DNA from: a bacterium
GTDB taxonomy: Bacteria > Armatimonadota > Zipacnadia > Zipacnadales > Zipacnadaceae
Direction of reading: 5' to 3'
Assembly (NCBI GenBank): GCA_030603495.1
Contig: JAUVXR010000025.1
Coordinates: 1 to 37,976, forward strand
Length of the DNA stretch: 37,976 nucleotides
The notes under the pieces were generated by a model that worked only from the letters and a program-made list of their open reading frames with translations, searched no databases and was not told where the DNA came from. Below, one piece after another: positions 7,544-37,976 of this stretch. Made by a program: the position numbers and the translations under genes. How positions within the stretch are numbered: the first letter of the stretch is position 1; each line of letters starts with the position of its first letter.

Positions 7544-7549
7544 AGCGTG

Positions 7550-18758: not shown

Positions 18759-18759
18759 G

Positions 18760-19986: not shown

Positions 19987-19987
19987 C

Positions 19988-21190
19988 TCACCCTGCACTA
20001 GCCTTTCGCTGTGCTATCTTCTCGGAGAGATGTGCGGTGATGATCTCCCACATCTGCTCCACGCGTACAGTCCACGAATTCTGCGCAGCCACCATCCGCC
20101 GCGTCTGTTCCAGTTTCGGGCAATCCTCGGCGGCAGCCCGTTTGACGGCCAGGCATAAATCATCATGGTGATTGGCAATTCGGACCCATGGCTCCAACTC
20201 TCCCACATTGGCGCCATTCGTCGCGACAATTGGCTTGCCGGCGGCGAGATAGTCAAACAGCTTCAAAGGGCTTTGCGAGATGGTCAGACTCGTGGCACAA
20301 AAAGGAATAATACAGACACTCATACCATCCAGATAAGCAGGGATTTGCTGGTACGGTCGCGGGCCCAGAAAGTGTATGTTTCCGTAGCGATGGGCCAGGT
20401 ACTCGCACTTGGCATTCCCCGCGCTGTTACCGATAAACACGAGATTGAACTGGGGGAGGCACCTGAGTATGTGCTCAACCAGATCCCAGTCTATTCGGTA
20501 GTTGATGGAGCCGACATAGCCAATGCGGGGGTCAGGAATACATTCTAAATCAACCGGGAGGCTGTTTGCGGGAATGTCAAACTGATCCACATCTGCTGCA
20601 TTGGGCATCAGAAATACATTCACTCCTTCGGCTTGCTTTTCCCGAAGGTGTTCCTCAGTCTGGACAAACACTACGTCCGCGCGGCGAGCAAGTCGTTCGT
20701 CCTGCTGCCGCCAAAGCTGTCGCACACGAAGGGGAGCATCTTCGAACTCCCAGAACCTTTCCGTGGAATCGTAGCAGATAAGCCTCGGCTCAAAGGCGTC
20801 TATCCAGGGCAAGTCCATTGGCTTAGAAAGCCACAGCAATACTTGTTTGCCGCGATTGGCGCGAGCCACGCGGCTTACAGCCTGCCGATGCGTCCAGTGG
20901 TTCACCCAGCGACCAAGGGTATTGGCCGTAGTGGGCAAGGGCGTCAGCGGCGTGACGACATGTAGACTATCTGTCTCGAACTGTAGTCCTTTCTCCCGAA
21001 TCCGCCGCCAGCGGTCGCAGGCGTCACCGTCAGCCCTTCCCAACCAATGTTTCGCCAACGATGTTAGCGTCAAGGGCCCCTCGATGTACCAGGTCTCGTC
21101 AATGGGTTCTTTCTGGCTCAGCCGCCAGGCGATCTGCTGGCGCCGCCGCCACAGGTCATCCCACTGGTCGCCGAAATACACGATATTCAC
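19988..21190 (-). CDS. TuaH-like glycosyltransferase (tandem copy 2)
   Basis: The 400-residue GT-B protein starts at GTG with GAGGG 6 bases upstream. It carries CYDSTERFWEF, RIGYVGSINYRIDW, LGPRPYQQIP and SPLKLFDYLAAGKPIVAT, each matching the corresponding block in the adjacent copy. The donor-binding Lys-Leu-x-[DE]-Tyr motif is intact. As a duplicate it may add the same sugar twice or have diverged to a new donor. It lies 24 bases after the methyltransferase gene in the same operon. Confidence 0.88.
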   Translation of the reverse strand: MNIVYFGDQWDDLWRRRQQIAWRLSQKEPIDETWYIEGPLTLTSLAKHWLGRADGDACDRWRRIREKGLQFETDSLHVVTPLTPLPTTANTLGRWVNHWTHRQAVSRVARANRGKQVLLWLSKPMDLPWIDAFEPRLICYDSTERFWEFEDAPLRVRQLWRQQDERLARRADVVFVQTEEHLREKQAEGVNVFLMPNAADVDQFDIPANSLPVDLECIPDPRIGYVGSINYRIDWDLVEHILRCLPQFNLVFIGNSAGNAKCEYLAHRYGNIHFLGPRPYQQIPAYLDGMSVCIIPFCATSLTISQSPLKLFDYLAAGKPIVATNGANVGELEPWVRIANHHDDLCLAVKRAAAEDCPKLEQTRRMVAAQNSWTVRVEQMWEIITAHLSEKIAQRKASAG

Positions 21191-21214
21191 AATAATCCCT
21201 CGGATGGAGCAAAG

Positions 21215-22216
21215 CTATCCTAGCTGGCTTTGGTGACCTGTACTGCCGCGTAGAACTTCGCCGTCCGTCATATGCAATAGCGCCTCAGGGACAAAGCCGT
21301 CGTCCTTGGCCACAAACATGCGCAAGGCGTGCTGCGATTTAGCAGCAATTGCCCACACGTCATTGGCGAAAAACGGGGACAGCCAGTTGACTCGGCTGCC
21401 TGTTCGCCGGATATTGCTGACTAGGCTCGGGTAGGCAGCATAATCGTCCGCAGACGTTCGCACATGGCAGGGCATCGAACAGTTGGCCAGTAGACGTCGC
21501 AAGGAAAACGGATTCCATAGGTGCAAGTGGCCGCTACATCTCTCAGTAGCGATACGCTCGCTATAGGCGGGTAGTTTTCGGTGCAGAAGCCAGTCAGCAA
21601 AGGGCCGCAGAACACCGTGGGCCAATCGTATGGGCAGCTCGTTTGGACCAGTAGATATCACCAGAACCCCGTTGGGACGCAATACTCGCTTAGCTTCTGC
21701 CACAAACAACTCCGCTTGCCACCGCTCGATATGCTCCAGGAAAGCGAAGCTCATGATTCTGTCAAAAGTCTCGTCAGCAAAGGGCAGCCGGCAGCCATCG
21801 GCACAAATCAACGATACGTAGCTGACAGCTCGGCTCTGGACCTGAAGTTGCTCGATCAGCTCCCGGCCAATGGCTATGGCTGTGCAGGAGAAGTCAATGC
21901 CGACAGCGTTGAGACCACGCAGAGCACAGTATATGCACAATTCGCCTCGCCCGCAGCCCACGTCCAGGACTGTCATACCCGGCTCCAGCTTCGCCCGGGC
22001 CAGGCCTTGGAGACGGTTGGGAAGAAGGGCCGCACCTCTGTGCTTGCAGAAATACGCACAGTTCGCCGGCGCCATCGCCTCATAATAGTCTTCGTGATAC
22101 AAAGACCGTACCGAGCTACTACCTCCATCGGCCATCCTGGCAAACGCCTCCTGTTCTGCCAATCTCTTACTGGTTAGCTGCAATTCCTCACTGTCCGTCA
22201 CGTGAACTAATGACAA
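21215..22216 (-). CDS. Class I SAM-dependent methyltransferase (Methyltransf_11 type)
   Basis: This 333-residue protein shows motif I VLDVGCGRGE (83-92), the acidic GIDFS strand, CADGCRLPFADETFD and SFAFLEHIE with the VLRPNGVLVIST post-motif, the standard Rossmann methyltransferase set. The start is uncertain. A TTG at 22216 directly abuts the previous stop but has no Shine-Dalgarno; a GTG at 22201 and an ATG at 22135, with GGAGG 11 bases upstream, are alternatives. It probably O-methylates a sugar or a chain terminus of the polysaccharide. It lies next to a second, unrelated-type methyltransferase. Confidence 0.88.
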   Translation of the reverse strand: MSLVHVTDSEELQLTSKRLAEQEAFARMADGGSSSVRSLYHEDYYEAMAPANCAYFCKHRGAALLPNRLQGLARAKLEPGMTVLDVGCGRGELCIYCALRGLNAVGIDFSCTAIAIGRELIEQLQVQSRAVSYVSLICADGCRLPFADETFDRIMSFAFLEHIERWQAELFVAEAKRVLRPNGVLVISTGPNELPIRLAHGVLRPFADWLLHRKLPAYSERIATERCSGHLHLWNPFSLRRLLANCSMPCHVRTSADDYAAYPSLVSNIRRTGSRVNWLSPFFANDVWAIAAKSQHALRMFVAKDDGFVPEALLHMTDGEVLRGSTGHQSQLG

Positions 22217-23125
22217 TCAAGAACAACGGCGTATCCAAAAGCTGCTCGACTGGTAGTTGATCTGCTGACCAAGCGGGTTGGGGAGCAGCCGCTCAACATC
22301 GTCAAGCCAGCGAGTCGCCGCGTATGTACCTGACCAAAGCACCTCAAACGCAGTGTTGAAGGCGAGGAATGCCTGCAACAGGTATTGTTCAGTCCAGAAG
22401 CGCCGCAAGTCGACCACCCAGCGTCTTGGGTGACTCCGTGGCAGATACACGTCGTGAACATGTATAAGCACCCCAGGGGCCAGCCGCGGAAGGACCTCCA
22501 AGTAGAGATAGACCACATCGCCGCCCAGACGGACTACGTGAGAAGAGTCGATGAACAGAATATCCCTATCATGTAGTGCTTCGAAAAAGGAGAGCGGGAC
22601 ATCTTGAACCGGTTGTTGCACAAGCTCGCTCAACCCCGGGAAACCTGTCTTTAGTACCGCATTAGGGTTAGGCTCTATTGCGATCAATCGGTCATCAGCG
22701 AGATCATTCATCCTCATTGCTCTTGCAGCGACATAAGTCGAATTGCCTGCCCCCACCTCGATGACAGTACGCGGCTTGTAGTGACGGATCATACAATGAT
22801 AGACCGCTGCGCTTACCAGTCCAAAAAGGTTATTATTGACGTGGTATTCGTGAGGACAGTCAGTAGGTGTCAAGGGGAACTTGCATTCCTCTTTGTACCG
22901 AGGGATGATTTCGTCAATCAGTCGGCGTTGCTCCTGCTCGTTGACATCGAGTCCTACCATGGCTGACTGATAATTCCACAAGCCATTGCGCTTTGCCAAT
23001 TGAGCCGTGTCGGGGATTGGACTGTACCAGTCATTGTGAAGCAAGTGAATCCCTCTTGCCTGTAGCCACTCGAAGACTCGCTTGGAAAAGAGCACTCGAC
23101 CGACCGCGCGCTTGATGATCGACAC
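22217..23125 (-). CDS. Class I SAM-dependent methyltransferase (Methyltransf_24 type)
   Basis: The 302-residue protein has motif I VIEVGAGNST (121-130), AIEPNPN for the ribose-binding acid and LFIDSSHVV plus HVHDVYLP, which in the Methyltransf_24/cephalosporin hydroxylase-like group place metal and acceptor. It starts at GTG with AAAGGAGG 7 bases upstream, a very strong site. It is expected to methylate a sugar hydroxyl of the surface polysaccharide. The gene is joined to the downstream methyltransferase without a gap. Confidence 0.87.
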   Translation of the reverse strand: MSIIKRAVGRVLFSKRVFEWLQARGIHLLHNDWYSPIPDTAQLAKRNGLWNYQSAMVGLDVNEQEQRRLIDEIIPRYKEECKFPLTPTDCPHEYHVNNNLFGLVSAAVYHCMIRHYKPRTVIEVGAGNSTYVAARAMRMNDLADDRLIAIEPNPNAVLKTGFPGLSELVQQPVQDVPLSFFEALHDRDILFIDSSHVVRLGGDVVYLYLEVLPRLAPGVLIHVHDVYLPRSHPRRWVVDLRRFWTEQYLLQAFLAFNTAFEVLWSGTYAATRWLDDVERLLPNPLGQQINYQSSSFWIRRCS

Positions 23126-23153: not shown

Positions 23154-24746
23154 CTAGTATGATATCGCGTAGTTGTTGCAGGCACGTCCGTCCCGATACC
23201 AACAGTAGTTGGTATCGCGGATGCCTTGCACTATTTCAGCGCTATCAGGAAAAGCAGGCCGCACGTAGTAGTGGTGCGTACGGCCCGGCTCAGTGCCAAA
23301 TGCCGCCGCAAGTACGTATTTGTGCTTCTCTGCGTAGCTCTTGAGGGTCAGGCACATTGCCATGAAATCGCTGCCACCTTGCGGTGCTGCCAGAGGGGAG
23401 AAGTCCGCCCGAAAAGCAATGACTTCGGGCTTGTAGCGGTCCAGATATGCCTCCGTGATTCTCCCACTATGAGCTATCCATTGGTCATTTAGTCCCCAGG
23501 TGTCTATGGCGCGCCAATTCGAATAGAGCGGTAGCAAACCGGCCTCTGATACAGCCATTGTGTAGCCTTTACTCTCATACTTGCCAAGCATAATTGCCAC
23601 ATCATATCTGCCATCTCTTCCCGTGCCGGAACTGTGGGTGAAACTGCTATAGGCGTACAAGAGTACCGCTAGCATAAGGGCAGTTCTGGTAACTAGCGCC
23701 GCGATCCGTCCACATCTAGGCAAGGTCGGCTCTTGGGGCAACTCAACCCCTCGAGCCAGTGCCGGCCACGATATCAATAGCATGGGCAGAACCGGATACT
23801 GCAACCGCATCCGGAAGTTCATTTCGTTGGACAACAGTATCCACATCCCGACAAACGCAGCCATCGGCATAAGCGAGAACAGCGCTTCTCTCAGGGTATC
23901 TATTGAACGAATTGTGGCCAGAAGATAGGCCAGCAGAAAAGGTGCCCCCATGACTACAGCGTGGTACACGCTGGCTCTGAGACTGCCAGGATAAAGATGC
24001 CCGCCGCCCTTCTTGTAGAACGGGTTGGGCAGGGGCTGGCCAAAATAGTTCCAACGCCAGACAAAATAGAGTCCCCCGATTACTACAAAGACCACTGCAA
24101 AATGCAGAACAATAGTCTTCGAATTCTGAATTGTGCGGAAATAGAGCAGCGCGCCTAGCATAAACAGCGCCAATAACACACCTTCGGGTCTGACTAGGCC
24201 CATCAAGAGGGCACATAGGGCGAAGATCAGTGAGAGCAAGTGCGACTCGTCGCTCTTTAGCATGTAGTTGGCCACGCACCACGTTATGGCGACGAATAGC
24301 CCAAAAAAGGGAGTGCCAAAATAGGCGGAGATGTAGGCTACCCCGGGGCCGATGGCCAGGTATGCAGCGGACAAAACTGCCAGCCACCTACTGACGGCGT
24401 GAATCCTTACGATAGCTACGTACACGATTATGACAGTAAGCACGTGCGACAGAGCTACCAATAGGCGCACGGCCTGTTCTAGTGGCATCCCAGTCTTGTT
24501 GAGACCGGCCACAGCCACCATAAACAGGAAATCAGTTGCCCCATCAACCGGCTTCTCACCTATGTTCCAGACAATACCGTGGCCTTCAGCCAGGTGTTTC
24601 GAGTAGCGCATGAGTATCGCCGCATCCTCGAACGGATGTTGAGAGAAGTTGACGTATCTGGCCGCGTATAGGAGCGTCAGACAGATCAGCCCCGCAATGA
24701 TGGCGTAGTCTGCGCTCTTCAGTTTAGCAGTTTGCTTTTGAGCCAT
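23154..24746 (-). CDS. GT-C fold membrane glycosyltransferase (AftB/GT39-like)
   Basis: The 530-residue protein has about ten hydrophobic segments in the first 385 residues and a soluble C-terminal domain of about 130. The first external loop carries Glu40-Asp41 within FEDAAILMRYSKHLAEGHG, the acidic motif of polyprenyl-phosphate-sugar dependent GT-C enzymes, followed by GEKPVDGATDFLF, close to the EGYT-N/DFLW block of AftB-like arabinosyltransferases. It would transfer a sugar from a polyprenyl-phosphate donor on the outer face of the inner membrane. A DPM1-like GT2 further upstream in the operon could make that donor. The Shine-Dalgarno is weak. Confidence 0.86.
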   Translation of the reverse strand: MAQKQTAKLKSADYAIIAGLICLTLLYAARYVNFSQHPFEDAAILMRYSKHLAEGHGIVWNIGEKPVDGATDFLFMVAVAGLNKTGMPLEQAVRLLVALSHVLTVIIVYVAIVRIHAVSRWLAVLSAAYLAIGPGVAYISAYFGTPFFGLFVAITWCVANYMLKSDESHLLSLIFALCALLMGLVRPEGVLLALFMLGALLYFRTIQNSKTIVLHFAVVFVVIGGLYFVWRWNYFGQPLPNPFYKKGGGHLYPGSLRASVYHAVVMGAPFLLAYLLATIRSIDTLREALFSLMPMAAFVGMWILLSNEMNFRMRLQYPVLPMLLISWPALARGVELPQEPTLPRCGRIAALVTRTALMLAVLLYAYSSFTHSSGTGRDGRYDVAIMLGKYESKGYTMAVSEAGLLPLYSNWRAIDTWGLNDQWIAHSGRITEAYLDRYKPEVIAFRADFSPLAAPQGGSDFMAMCLTLKSYAEKHKYVLAAAFGTEPGRTHHYYVRPAFPDSAEIVQGIRDTNYCWYRDGRACNNYAISY

Positions 24747-24819: not shown

Positions 24820-26754
24820 CTACTCCCTGTCAACCCAGTTGCCGATGTCGAGCTTGATGTCGAAGCGATGTGTCCCGCCACTGTGCAACAGTTCTCTGGG
24901 CAATTCTGCTGACAGGATTCGCGCCATTCCGCAGGCGTTGGGAACCTCCTCCTTCACCTGCAAGGGCCCCAGGCCCTCGCTGACAACTACGCGCAGCCCG
25001 GCACTCTTGCTGGCCCCAAGGAAAAGGACAGCTTCTCGAGCTGAAGGGCAGATGCAGTGCCAACTGTCCAGCATTGGCAGGTTAAGTACTCTCAGTTCCA
25101 CGATTCCCTCGTCCAGTGCACCCCTGATTTGGCCAAAACACTTAAGGGCATTGCGCTGGAACACGAGCACTTGCTCAATTGAGAACTGGCCGAACTCCAG
25201 TGTTACCGAGTACGTGTCGTTCGATTTGCGGCTTAGGCGACCAGTTGCTTCATGGCACGAGAGCCATCGTCCGTTGGACAGCCGCGCGATAGGCCCGAAG
25301 AAGTTTGCACCTGCCAGCGAGTGGCCATACCTCTGCCCGTACCGCCCGTCTGGCGAGGGACCACCGGGGCAGGAGAAGAGTAAGCCGTGCGGCTGGATCA
25401 GAAGATGCTGAAAGGAAGGTCCAGTGTCGGCTAAGTAGGGCGACCCCTGCCCGCTCTCGCCAAAAGCGGCAAAATATTGGGGCATACGCACCACCAGGCA
25501 GTTTGATGGTTCGAGAAACGTAAATGCTGCAGCATCGTAAGGTGTGGGCGCGCAATGAACTTGTGAGATCTGTGCCGCCAAGGCCACCCAAGCGCCAAAG
25601 GCGGCATTGTAGACGGACAGATGGTGGTAGTCATACCACCCCATCTTTGTCTGGTCTGCTCCTTGGGTGAGAATCAAGGGCAGGTGTCCGTCCGGTTGCT
25701 GATGGGCCATAACGAATTTCCACACTTGGCGCCTGACGAATTCAAGTCGCCCGGCACGGTCGGGTGCGAGACTCTTAGCAGCTTCCAGAGCATAAATGGC
25801 GCACGCGTAGCCAAAAAGCTGGCGCTGGCCTCTGCCGGTGTAGTTGAAATCGCCCCAGGGGTCAATCCAATGGCAGAGGTACTCGACCCCGCGCAAGAAC
25901 GCTTCGCGCACACTCGTATCGTTAGTGACCATCCATATCCGGTGAAGCAGCGCCAGGACGTACGCATGATATTGGATAGGACGGCTTTGCCCGGGGACGT
26001 CCTCAAAACAGCCGTCACCAAGCTGACGACGTTTCAGCCTCCATAGATACCTGCGGTATCGAAGGTAGTCTGTTGGACGATGCAGCAACTTGTATCTTAG
26101 AAGATGCGATAGAGCTCTCATTGCAATCCAATTGGTTGACTGATTGTCGTTCGACTTCCATGAGCCGATCGTGCGGAGGCAATCCGCCCGTATTCCCGGC
26201 GGCAGCTCCTGCCACAACATCCGAGATGTTTCCGCGAAAGCCAAGTTGTTGAAGTCCCAATGATAGTCCCAATCGGCGAAGACATACTCATCCGGAGCGG
26301 TCCGTATGTGGAATTGCATGGCTGCTCGCGCTCTTCCAAGATAGTCCGGTTCTTGGGTCAGGTGATACATTGCCGCGCTAAACAGTCCAAAAAAGGTGGT
26401 CGAATAATGCTCGCCTTGGACCCGGCAGTCTAAGTGATCGTAAATACCACCTATGTCGTACGGCAGACGAGCGCCCGGTAGCGACGCATCTGTCCAAGCC
26501 TCACTCACGGCACTGGCCGTGTGGGCACCGACTAATGGGTCGGGCACTTGCAGATTCGCCAGCCACGTGTAGAGCCGGGCCAGGACCGACATATACTGGT
26601 CCCCTGACTCGGGGGGCTCTCCCGGCTCCTTAGTTGGCAAAGTCAATGACCGGTAATGATTCATCTGGCCGTGCGCCTCCGGCACGGGTTGTAGAGCGGA
26701 AAACTCATGATAGCGGCCATCAAGACTTGTGCCATATTCTGCTGCGAGTAGCAA
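24820..26754 (-). CDS. Alpha/alpha-toroid protein, putative polysaccharide lyase or hydrolase
   Basis: A 644-residue protein whose first 410 residues are helix-rich with repeated aromatic helices (WDFNNLAFAETSRMLW, NQSTNWIAMRALSHLL, IQYHAYVLALLHRIW), as in (alpha/alpha) toroids of heparinase II/III-like and related lyases. The last 230 residues look beta-rich. The Tyr/His/Asn/Arg-rich motifs (QYHAY, WYDYHH) are lyase-like, but I cannot place it in a named family. There is no signal peptide. It starts at TTG with AAGGAG 7 bases upstream, inside the DUF362 gene (35-base overlap); the first ATG is at 26664 with GGAGG 11 bases upstream. It may trim or edit the polymer or an intermediate. Confidence 0.7.
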   Translation of the reverse strand: MLLAAEYGTSLDGRYHEFSALQPVPEAHGQMNHYRSLTLPTKEPGEPPESGDQYMSVLARLYTWLANLQVPDPLVGAHTASAVSEAWTDASLPGARLPYDIGGIYDHLDCRVQGEHYSTTFFGLFSAAMYHLTQEPDYLGRARAAMQFHIRTAPDEYVFADWDYHWDFNNLAFAETSRMLWQELPPGIRADCLRTIGSWKSNDNQSTNWIAMRALSHLLRYKLLHRPTDYLRYRRYLWRLKRRQLGDGCFEDVPGQSRPIQYHAYVLALLHRIWMVTNDTSVREAFLRGVEYLCHWIDPWGDFNYTGRGQRQLFGYACAIYALEAAKSLAPDRAGRLEFVRRQVWKFVMAHQQPDGHLPLILTQGADQTKMGWYDYHHLSVYNAAFGAWVALAAQISQVHCAPTPYDAAAFTFLEPSNCLVVRMPQYFAAFGESGQGSPYLADTGPSFQHLLIQPHGLLFSCPGGPSPDGRYGQRYGHSLAGANFFGPIARLSNGRWLSCHEATGRLSRKSNDTYSVTLEFGQFSIEQVLVFQRNALKCFGQIRGALDEGIVELRVLNLPMLDSWHCICPSAREAVLFLGASKSAGLRVVVSEGLGPLQVKEEVPNACGMARILSAELPRELLHSGGTHRFDIKLDIGNWVDRE

Positions 26755-27730
26755 ACCATAACTCCTTAGCTACGCGCCTCGGCTCCCCCCCTGAGGATAA
26801 CAGCGCCCCAACCTTGTTCAGTAGCCACGACGTGCGCAGCAGGCCTAGCCCCCCCGCGATCAGACACTTCTCGCCAAACGAGATGAATCGGAACTTCGGG
26901 CGGCACGACACTAGGTCACCGACTATCCTGATCCGGTCGGGGTCACCACACCCCAAACCTTGCGACGCGGCATACGCCAAGTGTGGTATCCTCTTAGCAG
27001 GAATCCCAATCAACCCGGCGGCAACGGTGTCAATGGCTACCGGGTCCGCCGCGACCAACACGGTTGATATGCTGCGAGCAATGCCGTGCACTGGACCGGG
27101 GCCCTCCATCGCGGGATTCCCATCTAGTATGTACATCTCCGCCGGCTTGGCCTGGATCAGATCAGTGATAACCTCGCTCAGGAAGGGATGGTATTTCTGC
27201 TTGTCGCCATCGGGTAGCAGTCCGAAGTGATTCTTCAGTGCGCCGGAAAATCCGGCCAGACGATGCGTCTTGATCTTGGAAAGCGAAACGAGCAGATCAC
27301 ACTCGTGCAGCCGCTGCGAAAGCAGCATCGGCTTCACTATGCGCGATTCTAACGGAACGTGAGTCATTGTATCGCGAGAAAGATCCAGAAGTTGGACCTG
27401 CGGGTCGAACGATCTTACCAGATCCGGGTATCCCTGGAACTCGAACTTGTCGCTCGCGAGGCAGCCGCCCGAGCTGTCGGACTCAGCAATCCAAATCTTT
27501 GCTGTAGCATTGATCTCGCGGACAGCTTGGATGAGGGCTTTGAGCATATGGGGGCTGACTACAACGCCTGATTGCCACGCGAACCGATTGCCGGCCGCGA
27601 GATTAGGCTTGATCACGACGCTATTGGCCCGTCTCAGTTTCTCGACGAGGCCCATCTCCTCGATGAAGGCAAACACTTCTGCTGCCGTGACCGAAGACGT
27701 ATGGAGTGCTAGTACCGTCGGCTCCGTCAC
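26720..27730 (-). CDS. DUF362 domain-containing protein
   Basis: The 336-residue protein matches DUF362: VVIKPNLAAG, IAESDSSGG, LVSLSKIKTHRLAGFSGALKNHFGLLP and ILDGNPAMEGPGP, followed by AADPVAIDTVAA. Many DUF362 proteins carry a ferredoxin-type Cys cluster; this one does not, having only scattered Cys. The function of the family is unknown, although it recurs in anaerobe and polysaccharide loci. It starts at GTG with AGAGG 5 bases upstream and lies 22 bases after the GT2 gene, and its 3' end holds the ribosome site of the toroid protein, which implies linked expression. Confidence 0.87.
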   Translation of the reverse strand: MTEPTVLALHTSSVTAAEVFAFIEEMGLVEKLRRANSVVIKPNLAAGNRFAWQSGVVVSPHMLKALIQAVREINATAKIWIAESDSSGGCLASDKFEFQGYPDLVRSFDPQVQLLDLSRDTMTHVPLESRIVKPMLLSQRLHECDLLVSLSKIKTHRLAGFSGALKNHFGLLPDGDKQKYHPFLSEVITDLIQAKPAEMYILDGNPAMEGPGPVHGIARSISTVLVAADPVAIDTVAAGLIGIPAKRIPHLAYAASQGLGCGDPDRIRIVGDLVSCRPKFRFISFGEKCLIAGGLGLLRTSWLLNKVGALLSSGGEPRRVAKELWFATRSRIWHKS

Positions 27731-27752
27731 TATGACCTCTCAGTGCAGTATC

Positions 27753-28505
27753 CTAGCTGCTGAAGCGGTAGCGAATCAGCGTCCAGACAGCTTGGATTCC
27801 GTCCCTTAATTTGATCTTCTTGCCTTGTTTCGTCGAGCGGGGGGCGTAGGTAATCGGTACCTCAACGATATCTATCCCTGCCTTCAAGACCTTCGCTGTC
27901 ACCTCAGGGCAAAACTCAAAGCCAGTGCACTTCAGGTCAAGCTTCTTGAGAACCTCCGCTCTAAAGGCTTTGTAGCAGGTAGGTTCGTCCGTGATCCGGC
28001 TTCCGTACAGGCAGTTTGTGATGAACGACAGGACGCGGCCGCCCCAGTAGAATGCCGCGCTCGACATTGGGTTGTCACCGGAGATCCTCGATCCATAGAC
28101 CACGTTGGCATCCCCGTTGGCTATGGGTGCTACCACCTGTTGGTAGTCCGAGGGATCATACTCAAGGTCGGCGTCCTGAATGATAACAACGTCGCCGGAC
28201 ACGTACTTCAGACCTGTGCGAATTGCTGCTCCCTTTCCTTGGTTATTGTCGTGGTATATGCACTTGATTCGCCGATCGTCCATACGAGCGAGCAGATCTC
28301 GCGAGCCGTCAGTTGACCCATCGTCCACCATGATCAACTCATGACAGATCGGATTAGCGAGCACACGTTCCACAATGGCGGTAAGTGTCCAGACCTCATT
28401 GAACACAGGCATTATTACCGACAGCTTCACATCCATCGGTTGGTAATCTCGCGATGGACTTGTCTCGACATTCGTGTTGAAGTTCAAGCGTTCGGGCTGG
28501 GCCAT
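27753..28505 (-). CDS. DPM1-like family 2 glycosyltransferase (polyprenyl-phosphate sugar synthase)
   Basis: The 250-residue soluble GT2 has LSVIMPVFNE, VDDGSTDGS (60-68), the DAD metal motif (111-113) in QDADLEYDP, and GSRISG and PTCYKAFR blocks of the DPM1/dolichyl-phosphate mannosyltransferase group. It lacks the C-terminal membrane helices of GtrB-type enzymes. It should load a sugar from a nucleotide donor onto undecaprenyl phosphate on the cytoplasmic face, supplying the GT-C enzymes in this operon. AGGAG is 8 bases before the ATG. Confidence 0.9.
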   Translation of the reverse strand: MAQPERLNFNTNVETSPSRDYQPMDVKLSVIMPVFNEVWTLTAIVERVLANPICHELIMVDDGSTDGSRDLLARMDDRRIKCIYHDNNQGKGAAIRTGLKYVSGDVVIIQDADLEYDPSDYQQVVAPIANGDANVVYGSRISGDNPMSSAAFYWGGRVLSFITNCLYGSRITDEPTCYKAFRAEVLKKLDLKCTGFEFCPEVTAKVLKAGIDIVEVPITYAPRSTKQGKKIKLRDGIQAVWTLIRYRFSS

Positions 28506-28544
28506 GTCAGTTGCTCCTATCTGCCGTTCCTGAAAGATGACGGA

Positions 28545-30197
28545 CTACCACGGCCCCCTTGGCCCAGAGGGCATCCGATGTGCCTCGCAATGTCGCGATA
28601 CAGAGGTGTCGCCGTGGTTAACTCCCACTCTGGCTGCTGGCCCTATCTCGTAAACCAGAGTAGGCCGTGAACCGCTTGTCTGGGCAACGTCCATCCGGCG
28701 ATAAGTCAGAGGCCGACGCTGTGCTATGTCCTGAAAAGCAGCGGTGCGTTTGTCTCGCCAGCCAAAGCTATCTATGACCAGATGCGTCGCCTGGGTGTAT
28801 CTCACCCAAGACTCAAGGGTTGCCGGCCGTGCTGTAATGGGAAACCCTTCGGTCCTTCGGCCAGCCCATAGATACATGTAGAATGGCTTCACACACAGAA
28901 TGATGGAATCGTCGGGGGTGTTGGTAGCAATCCACGTGCCAGCCCTCTTGTAGTCGGCAACTTCCGGCAGACTCATCAGTTTGTCTGGCTTTGTCACCGC
29001 TGTGTGGATACCCCCCACCAGTCCACCAATGACCAGCAGGGCAGCCAGTCCGTTGCGAGCATTGGTCGGGCTGATATTGAGAAAGAGGCTTTGCGTCCGA
29101 GCCGCTACCGCCCCCATGCCGCGAATAGTGAACCAGGCCAACATAGGTACTACTGGCAGCAAATACCGGGGCTCGCACGCAGGCTGGGGTAAGAGAAACA
29201 GGATGTACAAGGGAGTGAACATGGCCAGCAACCTGCGCCCAGTTCGGAAGTCCGCCTTGATGCCCACCCCAACCAGTGCTGCCATTGCCAGAGCGAGAGC
29301 ATATGCCACGGCAGTCAGGCCGGCTCTGTGCAGAGCGGCGGCAAAGGGCAGCAACAGTAGCTCGGACAGATCCCGAGCGTACCTCCATGCATGGGCAGCG
29401 AGACGAGCCGCCATCTCCCGGCCGCTAAGCATCCGCGACTCCTCGAGGTTAGGCTCAACGTGCAACGCCCGAAACAGATAATTGGTGTCTTGTGGCGTGG
29501 AAGACTGTCCTAGTACTAAGAACGGTGCTGCTGTCACTGCGATCATGGCGGCGAGGAATAGAGCCTTCTTGTTGCGCTGCTCAAACCACAAGTAGGGGAT
29601 CATCGCAAGCACGAGAACAACGCCTATTGTTCTAGTGAGCAAGGCAAACCACAACGCCAAAGCCAGAATGACACAGCGCACCGTCAACCCATCTCTTTCC
29701 CGTGCGCAGCCAATCGCCAGAGCCAAACATAACGTAGTTAGGGCAAGGGAAAGAGCCTCGCTGCGCAGCTGCGTCGAGAAAGAGACGACCAACGGGCAAC
29801 TCGCCACGATTAGGGCCAGCACCGAAGCCCAAACTCGGCCCACACTAAGCGCGAACAGCCAATAGGTGGCGGCCACCGCGGCCATGGTACATACCGCGGG
29901 CACGAGCTTCAGCGCAGCAATGCTGACCCCGAAGATTTTTATGATAGGAGCCAGCAGAAGCGGGAAACCAAAGGGGAAGGTGGTCTCCATAGGCATGCGC
30001 GGCGAATTGATCTGACGAAATCCTTTGCCTTCAGCAATGGACTTGGCCAGCACCACGTAATGGGCATCGTCGCCTTTCCCTCTGAGTGACGAGTCGAGGG
30101 AGATGGCAGCCAAACTGGCGATGATCACCATAGCGACCACCAGGATCGGCCCATGGCGGAGGGCAGTTCTTAGCGACGCTTGTCCACTACTCTTCAT
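28545..30197 (-). CDS. GT39/ArnT-like GT-C membrane glycosyltransferase
   Basis: The 550-residue protein begins with a membrane helix and then GKGDDAHYVVLAKSIAEGKGF, whose Asp43-Asp44 pair is the PMT/ArnT-type catalytic loop motif, followed by FPFGFPLLLAPI. About ten to twelve hydrophobic segments and a C-terminal soluble domain complete the GT-C layout. It transfers a sugar from polyprenyl phosphate outside the inner membrane. The ATG at 30197, with AGAGGG 8 bases upstream, is preferred to a TTG at 30230; this leaves an 11-base overlap with the GH88-like gene. The donor is probably made by the DPM1-like enzyme directly downstream. Confidence 0.87.
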   Translation of the reverse strand: MKSSGQASLRTALRHGPILVVAMVIIASLAAISLDSSLRGKGDDAHYVVLAKSIAEGKGFRQINSPRMPMETTFPFGFPLLLAPIIKIFGVSIAALKLVPAVCTMAAVAATYWLFALSVGRVWASVLALIVASCPLVVSFSTQLRSEALSLALTTLCLALAIGCARERDGLTVRCVILALALWFALLTRTIGVVLVLAMIPYLWFEQRNKKALFLAAMIAVTAAPFLVLGQSSTPQDTNYLFRALHVEPNLEESRMLSGREMAARLAAHAWRYARDLSELLLLPFAAALHRAGLTAVAYALALAMAALVGVGIKADFRTGRRLLAMFTPLYILFLLPQPACEPRYLLPVVPMLAWFTIRGMGAVAARTQSLFLNISPTNARNGLAALLVIGGLVGGIHTAVTKPDKLMSLPEVADYKRAGTWIATNTPDDSIILCVKPFYMYLWAGRRTEGFPITARPATLESWVRYTQATHLVIDSFGWRDKRTAAFQDIAQRRPLTYRRMDVAQTSGSRPTLVYEIGPAARVGVNHGDTSVSRHCEAHRMPSGPRGPW

Positions 30198-31857
30198 CCG
30201 GCCGACCCTCTCGTCCACGAGCGAGTGCAACCATCGGTCCAGGTGGCCGAGGCTCGCGGTCAGCCAACTCGTACCGGGCCATCAGGTAGTATGCAGCGGA
30301 GTACAGGAACCCACAATTCACGTTCCTGGCGCCCACGATGCAGCCTTCAGTGGTATGGGACGTGATAGCACCTCTGGCGCAGGAGTCGTCGCCATCATAG
30401 ATGTGAAGCTGGCACCAATCGAGTGCCCTCTCCGCTGCTTGGCGATAGGCTGAAGACCCGGTCACCTTGAATAGACGCGTCAGATTGTAGGCGAGGATGG
30501 AAGTCGCCTTCGCGCATTCGCCGCTGCCCGCGTCGTCCATAATGTAGTACCAACTGCCATTTCTATTCTGAAGGCACAGTAGTACATCTGCACATTCGAT
30601 AGCCCGTGCCTGCCATCTTTCCGTCGGAACGGCCTCGTACGCACATAGCAGCCCCAACAGGGCCCAAGCCTGCCCGCGTGCCCACTTCACAGTATCCAGT
30701 TCGACGCTGCTGCACCATGTCTTGGCGAACAGCCCGTTCAGTAATGAGAATCGTCGGACAGCGTCATCCAGCGTGCTGCGGAGAACTTCCTGCCAAGGTC
30801 CGTCACGGTCTCTGACGGCCAATCCGGCAAACAGGCCAGCTACGAACATAGAATCAACATAGAGCCACGAATCATCCCATCTCTCCGTAGCAGCGTCGCA
30901 TCCCACCAGGAGTCTGCCCGACCGATGCATGCCCTTCTCGCTGATCCATGTAGCCGCTCGTCTGGCCGCTTCCAGGTATGCCGTCTCGCCTGTGGCGTCG
31001 TAGAGTGGCAGAAACGCCTCCGAAGCGATGAACGCTGTATCGTTGGGCGCCAGCCACCGGACTATTCCATAGCTGTCGCCTCGGCTGGCGTCCAAGTCCC
31101 AACGCACCTCGACGCCCCCGGCGTTAGGCCCAGTGGTGAGCTGCCGTTCTCGCAGCGCATCACCTACTATCACGGCCATTTGATAGACAGACCTGTCACC
31201 TGTGCGTGACCATTCACTTAGCAGAGCTCGCACTGCTGCCGCGCTGCACCAGACCCACGAGTTGAGACGGTAGGTACGCTGGGTCAAATCGTAGCACGCG
31301 TGGAAGGTATTGCGGAAAGCGCTACCCGAAGCTTCATTGAAAGACCTCATTATGAACGCAAGCGGCGACGCTTCTGATGGGGGCCTTCTTGGCACTGCCG
31401 GCGAGGGAAATGTCTCCCCGGCAATGTCTAGCAATCGGCACGGCATATCGCCGAGCAATAGCGCTGCATCTACGCGACTGCGATCCCTGAATGCGGGATA
31501 CAACTGGACTTCTCGCACCCCTGGGTCCACCCACAAGACGTTCTCCCAAGGCTCAAACGGCAGCGGCGCGAAAGCAACAAACTGAGTGCCCCGAACCTTG
31601 GTAGCGCGGATAGGCTGACCATTTACTGCTCGCACTCCTCCTCGGCCTTCGAGGCGCGCGAGTACTAAATCACATTCTGCGGGGTCATAACGCAGCGGGC
31701 ACAGAATGATCCGGCCTCCACGGTGACGTCGCGGATTGAACCAACGCCGCAGGGCTCGCCCGCGGCTCCGGTCAGGTGCCCCGGTCCGCGTATCATCCTC
31801 CGCCACCAGGTAGACAGTCCTGGTTGTTACCTCTTCGCCATACCCCACCGACTGCAT
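30187..31857 (-). CDS. GH88/GH105-like unsaturated uronyl hydrolase
   Basis: This 556-residue protein has a 190-residue N-terminal extension of unknown fold, then a six-hairpin (alpha/alpha)6 barrel. Family-typical blocks are WLYVDSMFVAGLFAGLA with a candidate catalytic Asp335, VKWARGQAWALLGLL (near 391-404), GSWYYIMDD and a helix corresponding to SSATAIFAYGL. GH88 and GH105 hydrate and remove 4,5-unsaturated uronic acid left by polysaccharide lyases. No signal peptide is seen, so it would act in the cytoplasm. The ATG at 31857 overlaps the preceding TGA (TGATG). Its presence between glycosyltransferases is unusual and fits with the lyase-like toroid gene further down the operon. Confidence 0.8.
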   Translation of the reverse strand: MQSVGYGEEVTTRTVYLVAEDDTRTGAPDRSRGRALRRWFNPRRHRGGRIILCPLRYDPAECDLVLARLEGRGGVRAVNGQPIRATKVRGTQFVAFAPLPFEPWENVLWVDPGVREVQLYPAFRDRSRVDAALLLGDMPCRLLDIAGETFPSPAVPRRPPSEASPLAFIMRSFNEASGSAFRNTFHACYDLTQRTYRLNSWVWCSAAAVRALLSEWSRTGDRSVYQMAVIVGDALRERQLTTGPNAGGVEVRWDLDASRGDSYGIVRWLAPNDTAFIASEAFLPLYDATGETAYLEAARRAATWISEKGMHRSGRLLVGCDAATERWDDSWLYVDSMFVAGLFAGLAVRDRDGPWQEVLRSTLDDAVRRFSLLNGLFAKTWCSSVELDTVKWARGQAWALLGLLCAYEAVPTERWQARAIECADVLLCLQNRNGSWYYIMDDAGSGECAKATSILAYNLTRLFKVTGSSAYRQAAERALDWCQLHIYDGDDSCARGAITSHTTEGCIVGARNVNCGFLYSAAYYLMARYELADREPRPPGPMVALARGREGRPDEE

Positions 31858-32999
31858 CAAACGCTACCTACTCCTAAGAGTCGCATATATACTTTCTCGA
31901 CCTCGTCAGCCACACGTTCCCACGTGTACTTGCTCTCGACCATACGCTGGGCCCGGGCTGCTATCGTCCCTGCTAGCTGGCGATCGGACAGCAAGGTGGT
32001 AATGGCCTGGGCCAGGGCTTCCGGGGCGGCGGGTGGCACCAACAGGCCAGTCTGTCCGTTGGCAATGAACTCCCGCGGGCCAAACGTATCAGTTGCGACT
32101 ACGGGCGTCCCGCATGCCATCGCCTCCAAGTAAACAAGTCCAAACGCCTCGTAGCGGGAGGGGCCGACCAACAGATCAGCCGCTGAGTAGAGACGGGCGA
32201 GTTGCTTATGACGCACACAAGGGTGGACCCTGACGAACGGCTCCAGTTTGGCCGCCGATATTGTGCTGAGTACTCTTTCGACTTCCTCACCGTCCGCCTC
32301 GCGCGATGGCCCTCCGACGAGCAAGAACGTTGTATCTGGCCGCCTGGCGACCACGGCGGGAACTGCCTCAAGCAAGTCATAGATCCCCTTGTGCTCCTGG
32401 AACCGCCCCACGAAGAGAACCAACGGGCCGCTGATTCCCAGGTCCCGGCGCAATGCTGAACCGTCACTGGGTCTGAAGGTGGATAGATCAACACCGTTGT
32501 ACGTTGGCCAGAGCCTTCCACTGCCTACTCCCGCCTCTTCAAGTGACTGGCGCTCGCCGCTGTTCAAGTACAGGACTGCATGGCTGTTTCGGGCGATCGC
32601 ATACCAAAGCCACCTCCGCAGCGGTGTAAGCCGGCCTCGGGGCACACGCTGAAACCAAAAAGCCTGAGTGTGATGGGGCGTCATAACAAAGGGACAGCCG
32701 CGAATTTGCGCCGCCAAGAAGGCAGAACGCACGTGAGGCCATATCGCATGCGCGTGGATAACATCCACATCCTTTTCACTAAGCAGTGCCCTCAGCATCG
32801 TGCCATCCGCAAAAGCGTGCCGCATCCTAACAACCTTCGCTCCTCCTATAGTCTCCGGGGCCGGTTGGTCGCCCCAATCGTACGTGTATATCGTTACTTC
32901 ATGACCTCGGCTGGCAAGCTGACGGCTAAGCTGCTCGACATGCACACCCGCTCCGGTCTGGAATGGTCTGAAGTATCTCGTGACCTGGACGATCTTCAT
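31857..32999 (-). CDS. Family 4 glycosyltransferase (N-lobe acceptor type)
   Basis: The 380-residue GT-B enzyme opens with IVQVTRYFRPFQTGAGVHVEQLSRQLASRGHEV, the glycine-rich N-lobe of many GT4 enzymes, has HAHAIWP and GVDLSTF, and ends with VLFVGRFQEHKGIYDLL and PSRYEAFGLVYLEAMACGTPVVA, the E-x7-E nucleotide-sugar site. The ATG at 32999 is preferred; a GTG at 33002 is in frame. It shares its last base with the start of the GH88-like gene, so both are coupled. The sugar added is unknown. Confidence 0.92.
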   Translation of the reverse strand: MKIVQVTRYFRPFQTGAGVHVEQLSRQLASRGHEVTIYTYDWGDQPAPETIGGAKVVRMRHAFADGTMLRALLSEKDVDVIHAHAIWPHVRSAFLAAQIRGCPFVMTPHHTQAFWFQRVPRGRLTPLRRWLWYAIARNSHAVLYLNSGERQSLEEAGVGSGRLWPTYNGVDLSTFRPSDGSALRRDLGISGPLVLFVGRFQEHKGIYDLLEAVPAVVARRPDTTFLLVGGPSREADGEEVERVLSTISAAKLEPFVRVHPCVRHKQLARLYSAADLLVGPSRYEAFGLVYLEAMACGTPVVATDTFGPREFIANGQTGLLVPPAAPEALAQAITTLLSDRQLAGTIAARAQRMVESKYTWERVADEVEKVYMRLLGVGSV

Positions 33000-33042
33000 C
33001 ACAGGGCCTCTGATAGCACCAGTGAACGCACGGCCGGATTGC

Positions 33043-34647
33043 CTAGATGCCTCGGGCGGCGCGGAAGCCTTTTAGCCATTGCCCAAACGTGGTCTGGTTT
33101 AGGCCTCGCCGCATTAGAGCCGATTCTTCTGGAGTTACGAACCGCAGGAGCCACAGCAGGACAGCGTAGGCCGCATAGGCACACAAACCCACCACGGCTG
33201 TTGTCAGCAAGCTCTCAATGCTGGCAATGTCTCTGATAAGGGCAACTGTGGCGCTAACAACAGATGCGGCGATAAGAATCTTCCCCAGCGCGGCCCACGG
33301 AAACCACACGAGAGTGCACCCCGTACATCTGCGCAGCAGCACGAGAGAACTACACCATCCCACCAACTGAGTTATTGCCATGGCCAAGGCTGCACCAACG
33401 GCCCCATATCTGGGTATCAGGAGAAGATTGAGACCGACACTTGATGCCATACCTAAACCCATGACAATGCCCTGGTAGCCGCTACGGCCGAGGCCCGCCA
33501 CCAGAGACAGATAAATGACTACGCTCACTCCTCTCACAGCAAAAACGGGGCCAAGCACAGATAGTGCGGGGGCACCCCGCGCGTACTCGACGCCATAAAC
33601 GCCGCCGAGCAGTTGCTGACGGAGCAGGGCGATTCCTATGCCAAGGGGGACCAACGTGCCAGCAAAGTACTTCAGCAAGAATGAAAAACTCTTCCGTGCG
33701 GACTCGGTGCCGCCGGACGTATATCCAGCTGTAACTGCGGGAAACAGCACTGCCCGAAGCAGGTTAGGGATAACCATGATTGCTGAAGCAATGGCTAAGC
33801 TGGCCCGATAGTAGCTGAGCTCGTGAATGTCGCGTATCATTCCTAAGAACACAGTGTCAAACCATGAGAGCACGAAGTAGCCTGCTTCACCCGCAGCCAG
33901 AGGCAGCCCGAACTTGAACGCAGAAACGAGTTCCGAACAGATCAGCTGGCGGCTGGCGTCTCGTTTGGCCAGCGCCGGGATTTGTCGGGCGCTCAGCTCA
34001 GCAGCCAGCCATGCCACCCCCGAGCTCAAGGCCAGCGCCAGACATACTCCGGAAACCCCCCACTCTAACCTGAGGAACAAGTATACGAGTGCTGCGACTG
34101 AGATTGACCGCGTGATGCTGACGTAGAAGTAGTAGTTCCACTTCTGCAGCCCGGCGAAGACTGCCAGAATCATTACACTAACGCCGGCCAGCAACACACT
34201 TAGTGAGTACGCCTGGATGGGCCCCTCAAGCGCGTTTTGATGGAAAATGACTCGGGAAAGCCAGCCGGCCGAAAGGGCAAGCGCAATCGCACCTGCGGCG
34301 CCTGCTATCATTCGGTGAGTTCGAAGAGCCCGGTATAGGGCTGAAATTCTCCCAGTCTCACCTCGAGCGTCGTGCTGGGCAGCCGCCCTTGTGGCGCTGA
34401 CGGTCGTTCCGAGATTGATCAACATATGGACGAAACCGACGGCTGCGCCAGCCAATGCCACAAGCCCATATCGGCCGGGTCCTAGGCCCCGGCCACTCAT
34501 CACATTCACTAACAACCCCGAAGCCACTTCCACCGGCGCAGCCAGGGCTTTATAGCCTAGTCCCGCCAGTATCGTCCCAAGCTGAGGGGATGTGGCATCA
34601 TCAGATTCGCTCAGGTTCACTGCAGCTTGGCCTTCTGTCTTGCTCAT
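33043..34647 (-). CDS. MOP/Wzx-type polysaccharide flippase
   Basis: The 534-residue protein is hydrophobic throughout with about 12-14 membrane segments, and an N-lobe like that of Wzx/MVIN transporters (ILAGLGYKALAAPVEVASGLLVN, GLGPGRYGLVALAGA). It has the paired-half layout of MOP-superfamily flippases, with a central loop near FSFLLKYFAGTLV. It should move the lipid-linked repeat across the inner membrane for polymerisation by the Wzy-like gene at the right end. The ribosome site is weak. It lies 40 bases upstream of the GT4 gene that follows it. Confidence 0.9.
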   Translation of the reverse strand: MSKTEGQAAVNLSESDDATSPQLGTILAGLGYKALAAPVEVASGLLVNVMSGRGLGPGRYGLVALAGAAVGFVHMLINLGTTVSATRAAAQHDARGETGRISALYRALRTHRMIAGAAGAIALALSAGWLSRVIFHQNALEGPIQAYSLSVLLAGVSVMILAVFAGLQKWNYYFYVSITRSISVAALVYLFLRLEWGVSGVCLALALSSGVAWLAAELSARQIPALAKRDASRQLICSELVSAFKFGLPLAAGEAGYFVLSWFDTVFLGMIRDIHELSYYRASLAIASAIMVIPNLLRAVLFPAVTAGYTSGGTESARKSFSFLLKYFAGTLVPLGIGIALLRQQLLGGVYGVEYARGAPALSVLGPVFAVRGVSVVIYLSLVAGLGRSGYQGIVMGLGMASSVGLNLLLIPRYGAVGAALAMAITQLVGWCSSLVLLRRCTGCTLVWFPWAALGKILIAASVVSATVALIRDIASIESLLTTAVVGLCAYAAYAVLLWLLRFVTPEESALMRRGLNQTTFGQWLKGFRAARGI

Positions 34648-34677: not shown

Positions 34678-35961
34678 CTAGAGCGTGAGACTCTTGGCGA
34701 TGGATAGTACCTCGCGAGCGGTTATCTCCCAGGTATGCGATTTGCTCACCCAGTCGTGGGCTGCTTCTCCCAGGCGATCGCGCAACGTCGGCGACTGAGA
34801 GAGCGCAACCACGGCCTTGGCCAACGCAACGGGATCTTCCGGCGGGACCAGGATTCCCGTTACCCCGTCCCGGATCACCTCTTCTAGCTGACCAACACTC
34901 GAGGCAATCACTGGCTTGGCCATACACATATACTCAAAGACCTTTATTGGAGAGAAGTAGAAGGTCGCTAACTTCGGGTGCGGCGCAACTGCAATGTCCA
35001 TCACAGAGATGTAGTCAGGTATCTGCTCGTAGTCCACAGCTCCCACAAAAATGGCCTCGATACCACAGAGCTGCGACTGTCGTTCAAACTCCAACCGCCG
35101 GGGACCATCTCCTACGGCCAGCAGGCATAGGTCTGCGGCATCCGCGCCCGCAATTTTCAGTGCCCCAATCAGCGTGGCAACGTCATGCCACGCCTTCATA
35201 GTGCCGACAAAGCCGATAACGGTCTTCCCGTTCAGCCCCAGTTGAGATTGAAGCGAGGGCGAGCAGATTGTCGGATCGAATAGCCCCGGAGCGACACCGT
35301 TGGGAACGACGTGCAGCTTCTTGCTGGCGAACGGATGCGCCTTCAGGAGCCAGTCGGCGAGCTGTTCCGACACGCATACCGCTGCGTCAGACGATGCCAG
35401 GACCGCGGTCTCCCAGCCCAGAAGAGCCTTCTTGAATAGCCGTCCCCGGTCCGGAAATTCAAGCGCGAATGGCGCGTTGAACTCTATCAGGACTGGGACG
35501 TGCAAAACCTTGCCAAGCTTTGGCCCGACCAGGCTGAATAGCGACGCCCGTTCGTATACCAGATCAACACGGCGATCACCGAGGGCGTTGAGAACCATAC
35601 GACGGAACTGCCACAAGCGCATTCGCCGGGCGGCGTAGTCTAACGCGGTGGCAACTGACCTCAATGGGAGCCGGGAGTCAGTAGTTTTTGCTCCGGTCCG
35701 CTGAGAACGCGAGTCAACTGGATGCGCCCCTGGACGTGGAAACCAACTCCTGAGCCATTCCCGTAATCGGAGTTTGGGCGCGAATACGTGAAGCTGTACC
35801 CGCTTGGACAACCGCGCCGGCCCGCCTGCATTTGCGCAGCACAGGGTGACGTGGTGCCCCAGTGAGGCAAATGTCTCACACATCTGCCGCACGTGCACCG
35901 AGGATCCGCTCCGTCCCAATACATCCACCTCCCAATCCGCACAGACGTAAAGTATGTGCAT
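34678..35961 (-). CDS. Family 4 glycosyltransferase
   Basis: The 427-residue GT-B enzyme has ILYVCADWEVDVLGRSGSSVHVRQM in the N-lobe, a variable insert of about 60 residues (near 75-130), then VVPNGVAPGLF, GFVGTMKAWHDVATLI and a C-lobe site in PHPKLATFYFSPIKVFEYMCMAKPVIAS. The acidic pair is less regular than in the neighbouring GT4 genes. GGAGA 9 bases before the ATG supports the start. It belongs to the same operon, 13 bases after the next GT4 gene. The sugar is unknown. Confidence 0.9.
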   Translation of the reverse strand: MHILYVCADWEVDVLGRSGSSVHVRQMCETFASLGHHVTLCCANAGGPARLSKRVQLHVFAPKLRLREWLRSWFPRPGAHPVDSRSQRTGAKTTDSRLPLRSVATALDYAARRMRLWQFRRMVLNALGDRRVDLVYERASLFSLVGPKLGKVLHVPVLIEFNAPFALEFPDRGRLFKKALLGWETAVLASSDAAVCVSEQLADWLLKAHPFASKKLHVVPNGVAPGLFDPTICSPSLQSQLGLNGKTVIGFVGTMKAWHDVATLIGALKIAGADAADLCLLAVGDGPRRLEFERQSQLCGIEAIFVGAVDYEQIPDYISVMDIAVAPHPKLATFYFSPIKVFEYMCMAKPVIASSVGQLEEVIRDGVTGILVPPEDPVALAKAVVALSQSPTLRDRLGEAAHDWVSKSHTWEITAREVLSIAKSLTL

Positions 35962-35974
35962 GCAGGTGCTTCTC

Positions 35975-37271: not shown

Positions 37272-37976
37272 TCAAGTGTGCTCGCGCTCATTCGCTGATG
37301 AGTACCGACAGGAAGCCCACCCAGTCGCTACCACACATGCAGACAGCGTCATGTAGACGATGCCTGGGGTCGGATTCATCATGAACCCAAAAGGCTCGCC
37401 GTCGAAGAGCATGGTCACAGAGTACGCCAACCATCCTGAAGCCAGCCCAACGAACAGCCAGTTAACCCCCGCGAGGTTGGCGCGCCTTGCTAAGTGCCCA
37501 AAGGCGCGCCGGGCAACGAATAGCACGAAACTCATGAACCCGGCCAGTGCAATCAATCCGGACTCCGCACCAATTTGCAGATATGCATTATGCGAGTGCC
37601 CCGAGAAGTGTTGGTAGGATGGCAGAGGTCGCCCATATTGACCGTATGCGTCCCCGAACATGTCGACCCCCACGCCAAACAGGGGATGCGCAATCGTCAT
37701 GCGAAACGCTGCTTGCCAAAGATACCAGCGAGCTTCCGAATACGCGACCACGGGGTTCGATATGAATAACCCCGTGGCCATGCGCCAGTGGGAAGGCCAA
37801 ATAAGGTAAGAGATTCCACCCAGTCCGACCAAACCCACCGCAGCTATGACCATCCAACTGCGACGTCTTGTCGTTGTGGCCAGACCCAGAGCCGCCGCAT
37901 GCGCACGGATTTGATCTCGTTTGTATCGCACGAGCTGAACAACCCCTTGAGCGCATTGCAGGGCTTTGCTACGCTG
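37272..37976 (-). CDS. O-antigen ligase/polymerase (WaaL/Wzy-like), 5' partial at window edge
   Basis: The frame is open to the right edge with no start needed at 37931, so this is the C-terminal 234 residues of a larger membrane protein (family usual size 400-450). It holds RWYLWQAAFRMTIAHPLFGVGVDMFGDAYGQYG followed by HFSGHSHNAYLQIGAESGLIALAGF, the conserved outer loop of O-antigen ligase/polymerase (Wzy_C), with its catalytic Arg- and His-containing blocks. Two to three further helices follow. It should polymerise or ligate lipid-linked repeats at the outer face of the inner membrane, downstream of the flippase encoded at 33043. Confidence 0.9.
   Translation of the reverse strand, partial: QRSKALQCAQGVVQLVRYKRDQIRAHAAALGLATTTRRRSWMVIAAVGLVGLGGISYLIWPSHWRMATGLFISNPVVAYSEARWYLWQAAFRMTIAHPLFGVGVDMFGDAYGQYGRPLPSYQHFSGHSHNAYLQIGAESGLIALAGFMSFVLFVARRAFGHLARRANLAGVNWLFVGLASGWLAYSVTMLFDGEPFGFMMNPTPGIVYMTLSACVVATGWASCRYSSANEREHT

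Follow-up and report, generated by a model that had tools for sequence, protein, structure and literature searches.

A toroid-fold protein and a GH88-like protein in a bacterial glycan-assembly operon: a possible uronate-acting tailoring or editing pair

In the literature that we found, pairs of a uronate dehydratase and a glycoside hydrolase of family GH88 are known only from the breakdown of acidic glycans. Proteins formerly placed in family GH154 are beta-D-glucuronate dehydratases, which make a terminal glucuronate (GlcA) cleavable by GH88, and they frequently co-localise with GH88 or GH105 (PMC12269599, JBC 2025); an unrelated dehydratase is paired with GH105 (PMC8511951). The presence of a hydrolase or lyase within a synthesis operon is itself common (PMC9075953, PMC8829089). 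In archaeal N-glycan assembly, the fourth sugar of the Haloferax glycan depends on AglQ, a soluble GH88-related protein (PMC3827465), and Agl32 is a helical-domain C5-epimerase acting on the Halobacterium glycan (PMC13308652). Here, we describe a stretch of 37,976 nucleotides (the window) from an armatimonadote, contig JAUVXR010000025.1 of assembly GCA_030603495.1, in which a GH88-like gene and a gene for an alpha/alpha-toroid protein lie within a glycan-assembly operon. Both products may be cytoplasmic uronate-acting enzymes of lipid-linked glycan assembly that trim a terminal uronate by the dehydratase/GH88 route, a reading that we favour tentatively, at somewhat less than even confidence.

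The window is one contig (C45) of a 2.67 Mb genome in 62 contigs that is 93.5% complete. Its glycan genes form one continuous minus-strand run from 37931 down to about 13503, and the cluster is truncated by the window end on the O-antigen-ligase-like side (Table 1). From 37931 onward the order is an O-antigen-ligase-like gene, two family 4 glycosyltransferases (GT4), a Wzx-like flippase, another GT4 and the GH88-like gene, followed by a PMT_2-type membrane glycosyltransferase, a family 2 glycosyltransferase (GT2), a DUF362 gene, the toroid gene and a GT-C-like membrane protein, and finally two methyltransferases, three GT4, a CoA-ligase-like gene, a GT2 and a class-III aminotransferase. The first-pass annotation, made from the sequence of the window, had placed both reading frames here among glycosyltransferases, and had found them to lack signal peptides. 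Both points are borne out: by hydropathy, neither protein has a signal peptide or a membrane helix.

The GH88-like protein was also rightly picked out as a candidate unsaturated-uronyl hydrolase. Pfam GH88 (PF07470) matches residues 198-481 with an E-value of 9e-18 and 64.8 bits, against a curated cut-off of 26.6 (65.2 bits in the genome search). When a profile of five GH88 proteins was matched to solved structures, the conserved catalytic Asp, D335 (codon 30853-30855), fell in the column of YteR D143, the residue replaced by Asn in the D143N structure 2gh4; its counterpart in UGL is D149. The protein thus shares with the GH88/GH105 unsaturated uronyl hydrolases YteR and UGL the Pfam domain, the catalytic Asp, the W-x-R-G-x-x-W motif (W392, R394, G395 and W398) and the lack of a signal peptide, but it carries about 160 extra N-terminal residues (residues 1-161 have no Pfam match) and its gene sits between glycosyltransferases. 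D273, within NDTAF, is a candidate for the second active-site Asp (D88), but adjoins an alignment gap. An AlphaFold2 (AF2) model built from only two sequences, with a predicted template modelling score (pTM) of 0.56, was too weak to inform on the N-terminal region; its top Foldseek matches were GH76, GH88 and GH105 proteins at E 1e-4. Two scans of viral contigs confirmed no GH88 relatives there. On a plasmid of Haloarcula sp. CBA1115 (L021:5079-11833), a GH88 gene lies near genes for a nucleotide sugar dehydrogenase and a lipopolysaccharide-type protein, with a DUF362 gene two genes on; the window likewise has a DUF362 gene between those of the two enzymes.

The toroid protein is a distant homologue of the glucuronate dehydratases. 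It scores 23.6 bits against the DUF2264 profile with hmmscan, where the cut-off is 25, and 25.6 bits in the genome search. A profile of seven toroid homologues has as its best PDB matches the glucuronate dehydratases 9o4u and 9nwf (E 0.0014 and 0.019). A second profile, of eleven toroid homologues, failed to recover these entries, and the profile link by itself would be thin; it is backed by hhalign comparison with six true DUF2264/GH154 proteins, which gives a probability of 92% and an E-value of 6e-7, and by motifs that agree. For the dehydratase BcGDH, ten active-site residues have been listed, with Y229 as the proposed base, R285 as its helper and Y289 as the proposed acid (PMC12269599). 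According to three MAFFT strategies, all 13 toroid proteins retain BcGDH N177, W178, Y229, R285 and Y354, the match of Y229 being gap-dependent in that the HMMER and hhalign register places it a few residues away. The conserved residues of the window protein are N178, W179, Y232, H233, R278, Q282 and Y346. In common with BcGDH and GH154 (PMC12269599; 9nwf, 9o4u), the protein has the toroid fold, the DG-x-x-x-D, N-W and GR motifs, the Tyr229 and Arg285 positions and a GH88 partner. It differs in having Met or Leu at the position of F181, an additional beta-sandwich and a biosynthetic rather than catabolic locus, and in a small-sample tree the toroid proteins form their own clade, split from six GH154 proteins at 100/100.

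Both genes are retained together and in the same order in a same-genus relative, G006 (JAUWYY010000004.1), where the operon core is collinear and the proteins are about 65-89% identical; the difference is a nucleotide sugar dehydrogenase gene that in G006 lies between the GT2 and aminotransferase genes. Between the two genomes, the ratio of nonsynonymous to synonymous substitution rates is 0.18 for the GH88-like gene and 0.14 for the toroid gene, with 0.11-0.20 for other genes of the cluster; purifying selection acts on both, as on the glycosyltransferases. The GH88-like protein is present in only two of 291 genomes of the phylum, the window's own and G006, and is therefore confined, within the phylum, to this cluster. 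Its ATG at 31857 sits in a TGATG with the upstream GT4 gene (31857-33002), as had been annotated, and the coupling in G006 is identical. The other coupling then proposed, a TTG start with a 35-base overlap, has to be given up. The open frame at 24820-26754 and DUF362 do share 35 bases, yet the overlap is unsupported because in G006 an in-frame TGA separates the TTG-start stretch from the homologous toroid protein; what similarity the stretch has belongs to the DUF362 codons that it overlaps. The start backed by both genomes is the ATG at 26664 (MNHYRS / MSHCRS), 55 bases past the DUF362 stop and preceded by GGAGG in the window. The GT-C-like gene beside the toroid gene in G006 (L024:11846-12916) is shorter than its counterpart at 23154-24746 of the window; the matching residues, 1-347 and 451-530, fall in different frames, which may reflect a frameshift or a sequencing error.

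What reaction might the toroid protein catalyse? Its AF2 model (pTM 0.85) combines the toroid with a C-terminal beta-sandwich, and in a full-length Foldseek search the best matches are the polysaccharide lyase (PL) family 35 enzyme GAGase II (8khv), at E 4.5e-14, a PL35-type chondroitinase, PL33 and the heparan sulfate lyase HepC; PL12-type lyases match as well. The same two-domain architecture matches human dermatan sulfate epimerase 1 at E 2e-10. The earlier label "alpha/alpha-toroid lyase-like" thus captured the fold of the lyase superfamily and was too narrow in naming a lyase, since the nearest sequences are uronate dehydratases and the fold is common to a C5-epimerase. The window protein shares with the PL33, PL35 and PL12 lyases and the epimerase the toroid plus antiparallel beta-sandwich and a similar Asn/Tyr spacing, but belongs to none of their families by detectable sequence similarity; up to E 10, no Hepar_II_III or PL profile matched it. 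When the toroid domain alone was compared with VIA-align, cellobiose 2-epimerases ranked top, which we take as a shared fold and not as a function. By analogy, abstraction of the C5 proton of a uronate would be the safest functional inference, because the characterised relatives act in this way (PMC11848413, PMC12269599). Whether water elimination, sugar elimination or epimerisation would follow cannot be told from sequence, and the protein is neither a proven lyase nor an established non-cleaving paralogue.

If the C5 step were followed by sugar elimination, the pair could serve homeostatic degradation in the manner of AlgL or PslG, with the toroid protein as an endo- or exo-lyase on mis-routed cytoplasmic polymer and the GH88-like protein clearing the unsaturated ends. 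The top Foldseek matches are consistent with such a role, as is the spacing of 54 between N178 and Y232, which resembles that of PL33 N238-Y291 (PMC11848413). Together with H420 of the beta-sandwich, these two residues are candidates, by alignment, for the lyase Asn-Tyr-His set; H420 is, however, retained only in the close clade and absent from the wider toroid family. Synthesis clusters often encode glycosyl hydrolases and lyases (PMC9075953, PMC8829089), and PslG, AlgL and PelA all have a degradative fold encoded among synthesis genes, but their sites of action are the membrane or the periplasm (the periplasm for AlgL, the inner membrane/periplasm for PslG) and they belong to different families, whereas the window proteins carry no export signals. 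Moreover, chains of the Wzx type are polymerised outside the cytoplasm, and the toroid sequence is closer to the dehydratases than to any lyase family. We regard the degradative role as improbable.

A second alternative is tailoring without cleavage: the toroid protein would modify the assembled glycan as a uronate C5-epimerase or a similar isomerase, and the GH88-like protein would be an assembly factor like AglQ rather than a hydrolase. The match to the human epimerase fits this alternative, and the base Tyr and the Asn/Arg are retained while the acid that would protonate a leaving group is lost; PL33-type lyases and the epimerase are known to share their catalytic apparatus (PMC11848413). 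A KSB1 homologue has in addition a weak C5-epim_C match (E 0.0035), and Agl32 and AglQ provide precedents in archaeal N-glycan assembly (PMC13308652, PMC3827465), where soluble helical-toroid proteins take part in glycan assembly with uronates. AglQ is only remotely GH88-like, its best Pfam match being GlcNAc 2-epimerase (PMC3827465), whereas the window protein is a clear Pfam GH88 with the catalytic Asp, and Agl32 is a single helical domain whose catalytic residues are not conserved. Furthermore, no sequence relation was found between the window toroid and dermatan sulfate epimerase, and no UDP-uronate dehydrogenase was seen in the window's genome. We consider non-cleaving tailoring rather unlikely.

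Trimming of a terminal uronate by a dehydratase/GH88 pair, the reading that we favour, would proceed as follows. While the glycan is growing and faces the cytoplasm, the toroid enzyme would abstract the C5 proton from a uronate located at the glycan's non-reducing end or close to it, with Tyr232 as the base and Asn178 and Arg278 stabilising the enolate. Elimination of the C4 group would then yield a 4,5-unsaturated residue, and the GH88-like enzyme would hydrolyse it off. Overall, the pair would strip the glycan of its terminal uronate, perhaps to trim or proofread chains that the Wzx-like protein has yet to flip. The data establish the gene context and its conservation in two genomes, the GH88 assignment with its catalytic Asp, the toroid fold, the distant homology to the uronate dehydratases and the residues conserved in the alignments; what the substrate is, which reaction takes place, in what order the enzymes act and to what end are our inferences. 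The proposal that the pair cuts and cleans uronate-containing intermediates in the cytoplasm is plausible as to place, with cleavage a putative step and uronate in the organism's glycan not established. Rather than two polysaccharide-cleaving enzymes, "a uronate-acting tailoring or editing pair" seems the apt description, plausible but unproven.

Several observations speak against the trimming scheme. The proposed acid of BcGDH, Y289, is Gln in 11 of 13 toroid proteins and Thr in the remaining two, which form a side branch, and the family has also lost R78; because of these changes the exact dehydratase site is not kept, and because the acid Tyr is replaced by Gln we do not file the toroid protein in GH154. 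No convincing UDP-sugar 6-dehydrogenase is present in the window's genome, which is 93.5% complete and whose cluster is truncated at the window end: the one UDP-glucose dehydrogenase candidate was a weak Rossmann match that reads as an opine-type dehydrogenase and lacks a central-domain match. The sole KduI-family protein, a possible partner, is IolB. Neither a supply of uronate nor a means of disposing of the GH88 product is therefore seen. The missing dehydrogenase counsels caution rather than disproof; G006 has three UDP-sugar dehydrogenases, one of them inside the same cluster. Finally, no GH88 gene adjoins the toroid gene in other synthesis clusters (in KSB1, none within the 10 kb flanks), and GH88 is missing altogether from the genomes G046 and G133.

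The toroid family is rare, occurring in 11 of 291 genomes of the phylum and at 11 loci in a GTDB scan that used two patterns only. Glycan-synthesis clusters that contain homologues are found in KSB1, in Thalassospira and in two further families, and most of them lack GH88. In KSB1 (L025, L026) the toroid gene is accompanied by Wzy_C, carbamoyltransferase, Wzx, asparagine synthase, GT4 and GH39 genes, GH39 being the family of PslG, and GH88 genes occur elsewhere in these genomes. In both loci (L025:8310-14668, L026:8367-14869) an FrhB/FdhB-type protein is encoded directly upstream of the toroid gene and the GH39 gene is two genes downstream. In G046 (L013) and G133 (L080) the toroid gene lies between GT4 and GT2 genes of similar type, and since these genomes lack GH88, the toroid protein can serve synthesis without it. 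In Thalassospira profundimaris S25-3-2 (L034), a cultured host, it lies among glycosyltransferases; an open reading frame (ORF) of 325 residues without a Pfam match (L034:8778-9755), directly upstream of it and slightly overlapping, might be a separate second domain. At most loci of the Hebobacteria type, the neighbours of the toroid gene include a GH38-like protein and SIS-type isomerases; at L027 it stands beside a nitroreductase (names read from the sequences). Relatives recur in glycan loci, with some members, in Hebobacteria and SpSt-1139, outside them. Neither of the two findings that the first-pass annotation had named as counting against it, kinship with non-cleaving paralogues and a conserved place outside glycan loci, is clearly borne out. 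On plasmids, true DUF2264 genes occur near GH88 genes, one also near kduI.

The synthesis clusters without GH88 would also suit a toroid enzyme that installs a permanent 4,5-unsaturated uronate, the GH88-like protein removing unwanted ones or having another substrate. In the window, though, the adjoining GH88 would destroy the product, and acid residue and uronate supply are just as uncertain; we think this very unlikely. A broader reading, which we hold to be less likely than not, is that a hitherto undescribed toroid family, recruited from the superfamily of uronate dehydratases and lyases, works on lipid-linked glycans in the cytoplasm while bacteria of several phyla make their surface polysaccharides, and that in this genus it is coupled to a GH88 enzyme as a chain-editing module.

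No description of a dehydratase-type/GH88 pair inside a biosynthetic operon was found in the open literature, with subscription papers and preprints outside the scope. As far as that literature goes, two things are new: the occurrence, in the synthesis clusters of several phyla, of a toroid family whose acid residue is altered, and the toroid-GH88 pairing inside one synthesis operon. The first-pass annotation knew of no described system of synthesis plus editing; this stands for the pairing, whereas operon-encoded hydrolases and lyases, the dehydratase-GH88 partnership and AglQ had each been described. If the chemistry known from breakdown also edits or tailors a glycan during its synthesis, this would account for genes of degradative appearance in synthesis clusters, and uncultured bacteria would be predicted to carry unsaturated, epimerised or trimmed uronates in their surface glycans. 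With its Tyr-to-Gln change, the toroid family offers a concrete target for assay.

Table 1. Genes of the glycan-assembly operon, in window coordinates
Feature	Coordinates	Strand	Remark
O-antigen ligase/Wzy-like C-terminal part	37272..37931	-	at window end
Two GT4 glycosyltransferases	34678-35961 and 35975-37189 (span 34678..37189)	-	
Wzx-like flippase (Polysacc_synt)	33043..34647	-	
GT4 glycosyltransferase	31857..33002	-	translationally coupled to GH88-like gene
GH88-like protein, 556 aa	30190..31857	-	ATG start within TGATG
GT-C / PMT_2-type membrane glycosyltransferase	28545..30230	-	likely ATG start inside end of GH88 gene
Family 2 glycosyltransferase, polyprenyl-phosphate sugar synthase type	27753..28505	-	
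DUF362 protein	26720..27730	-	between GT2 and toroid genes
Toroid + beta-sandwich protein, 614 aa	24823..26664	-	distant GH154/DUF2264 homologue
GT-C-like membrane protein	23154..24746	-	directly downstream of toroid gene
Remaining operon: class-III aminotransferase, GT2, CoA-ligase-like, three GT4, two methyltransferases	13503..23125	-	

Just past the distal end of the operon, on the opposite strand, lies a gene of the alpha-L-fucosidase family (PF01120; 12111-13367, +). The region at 2083-11732 is a catabolic-looking block with genes for an aldehyde dehydrogenase, an E1/transketolase-type dehydrogenase pair and three short-chain dehydrogenases/reductases, together with M24 peptidase, URO-D and amidohydrolase family genes. 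An ORF of 571 residues at 11-1726 (+) has a sub-threshold match to the collagen triple-helix repeat in its N-terminal part.

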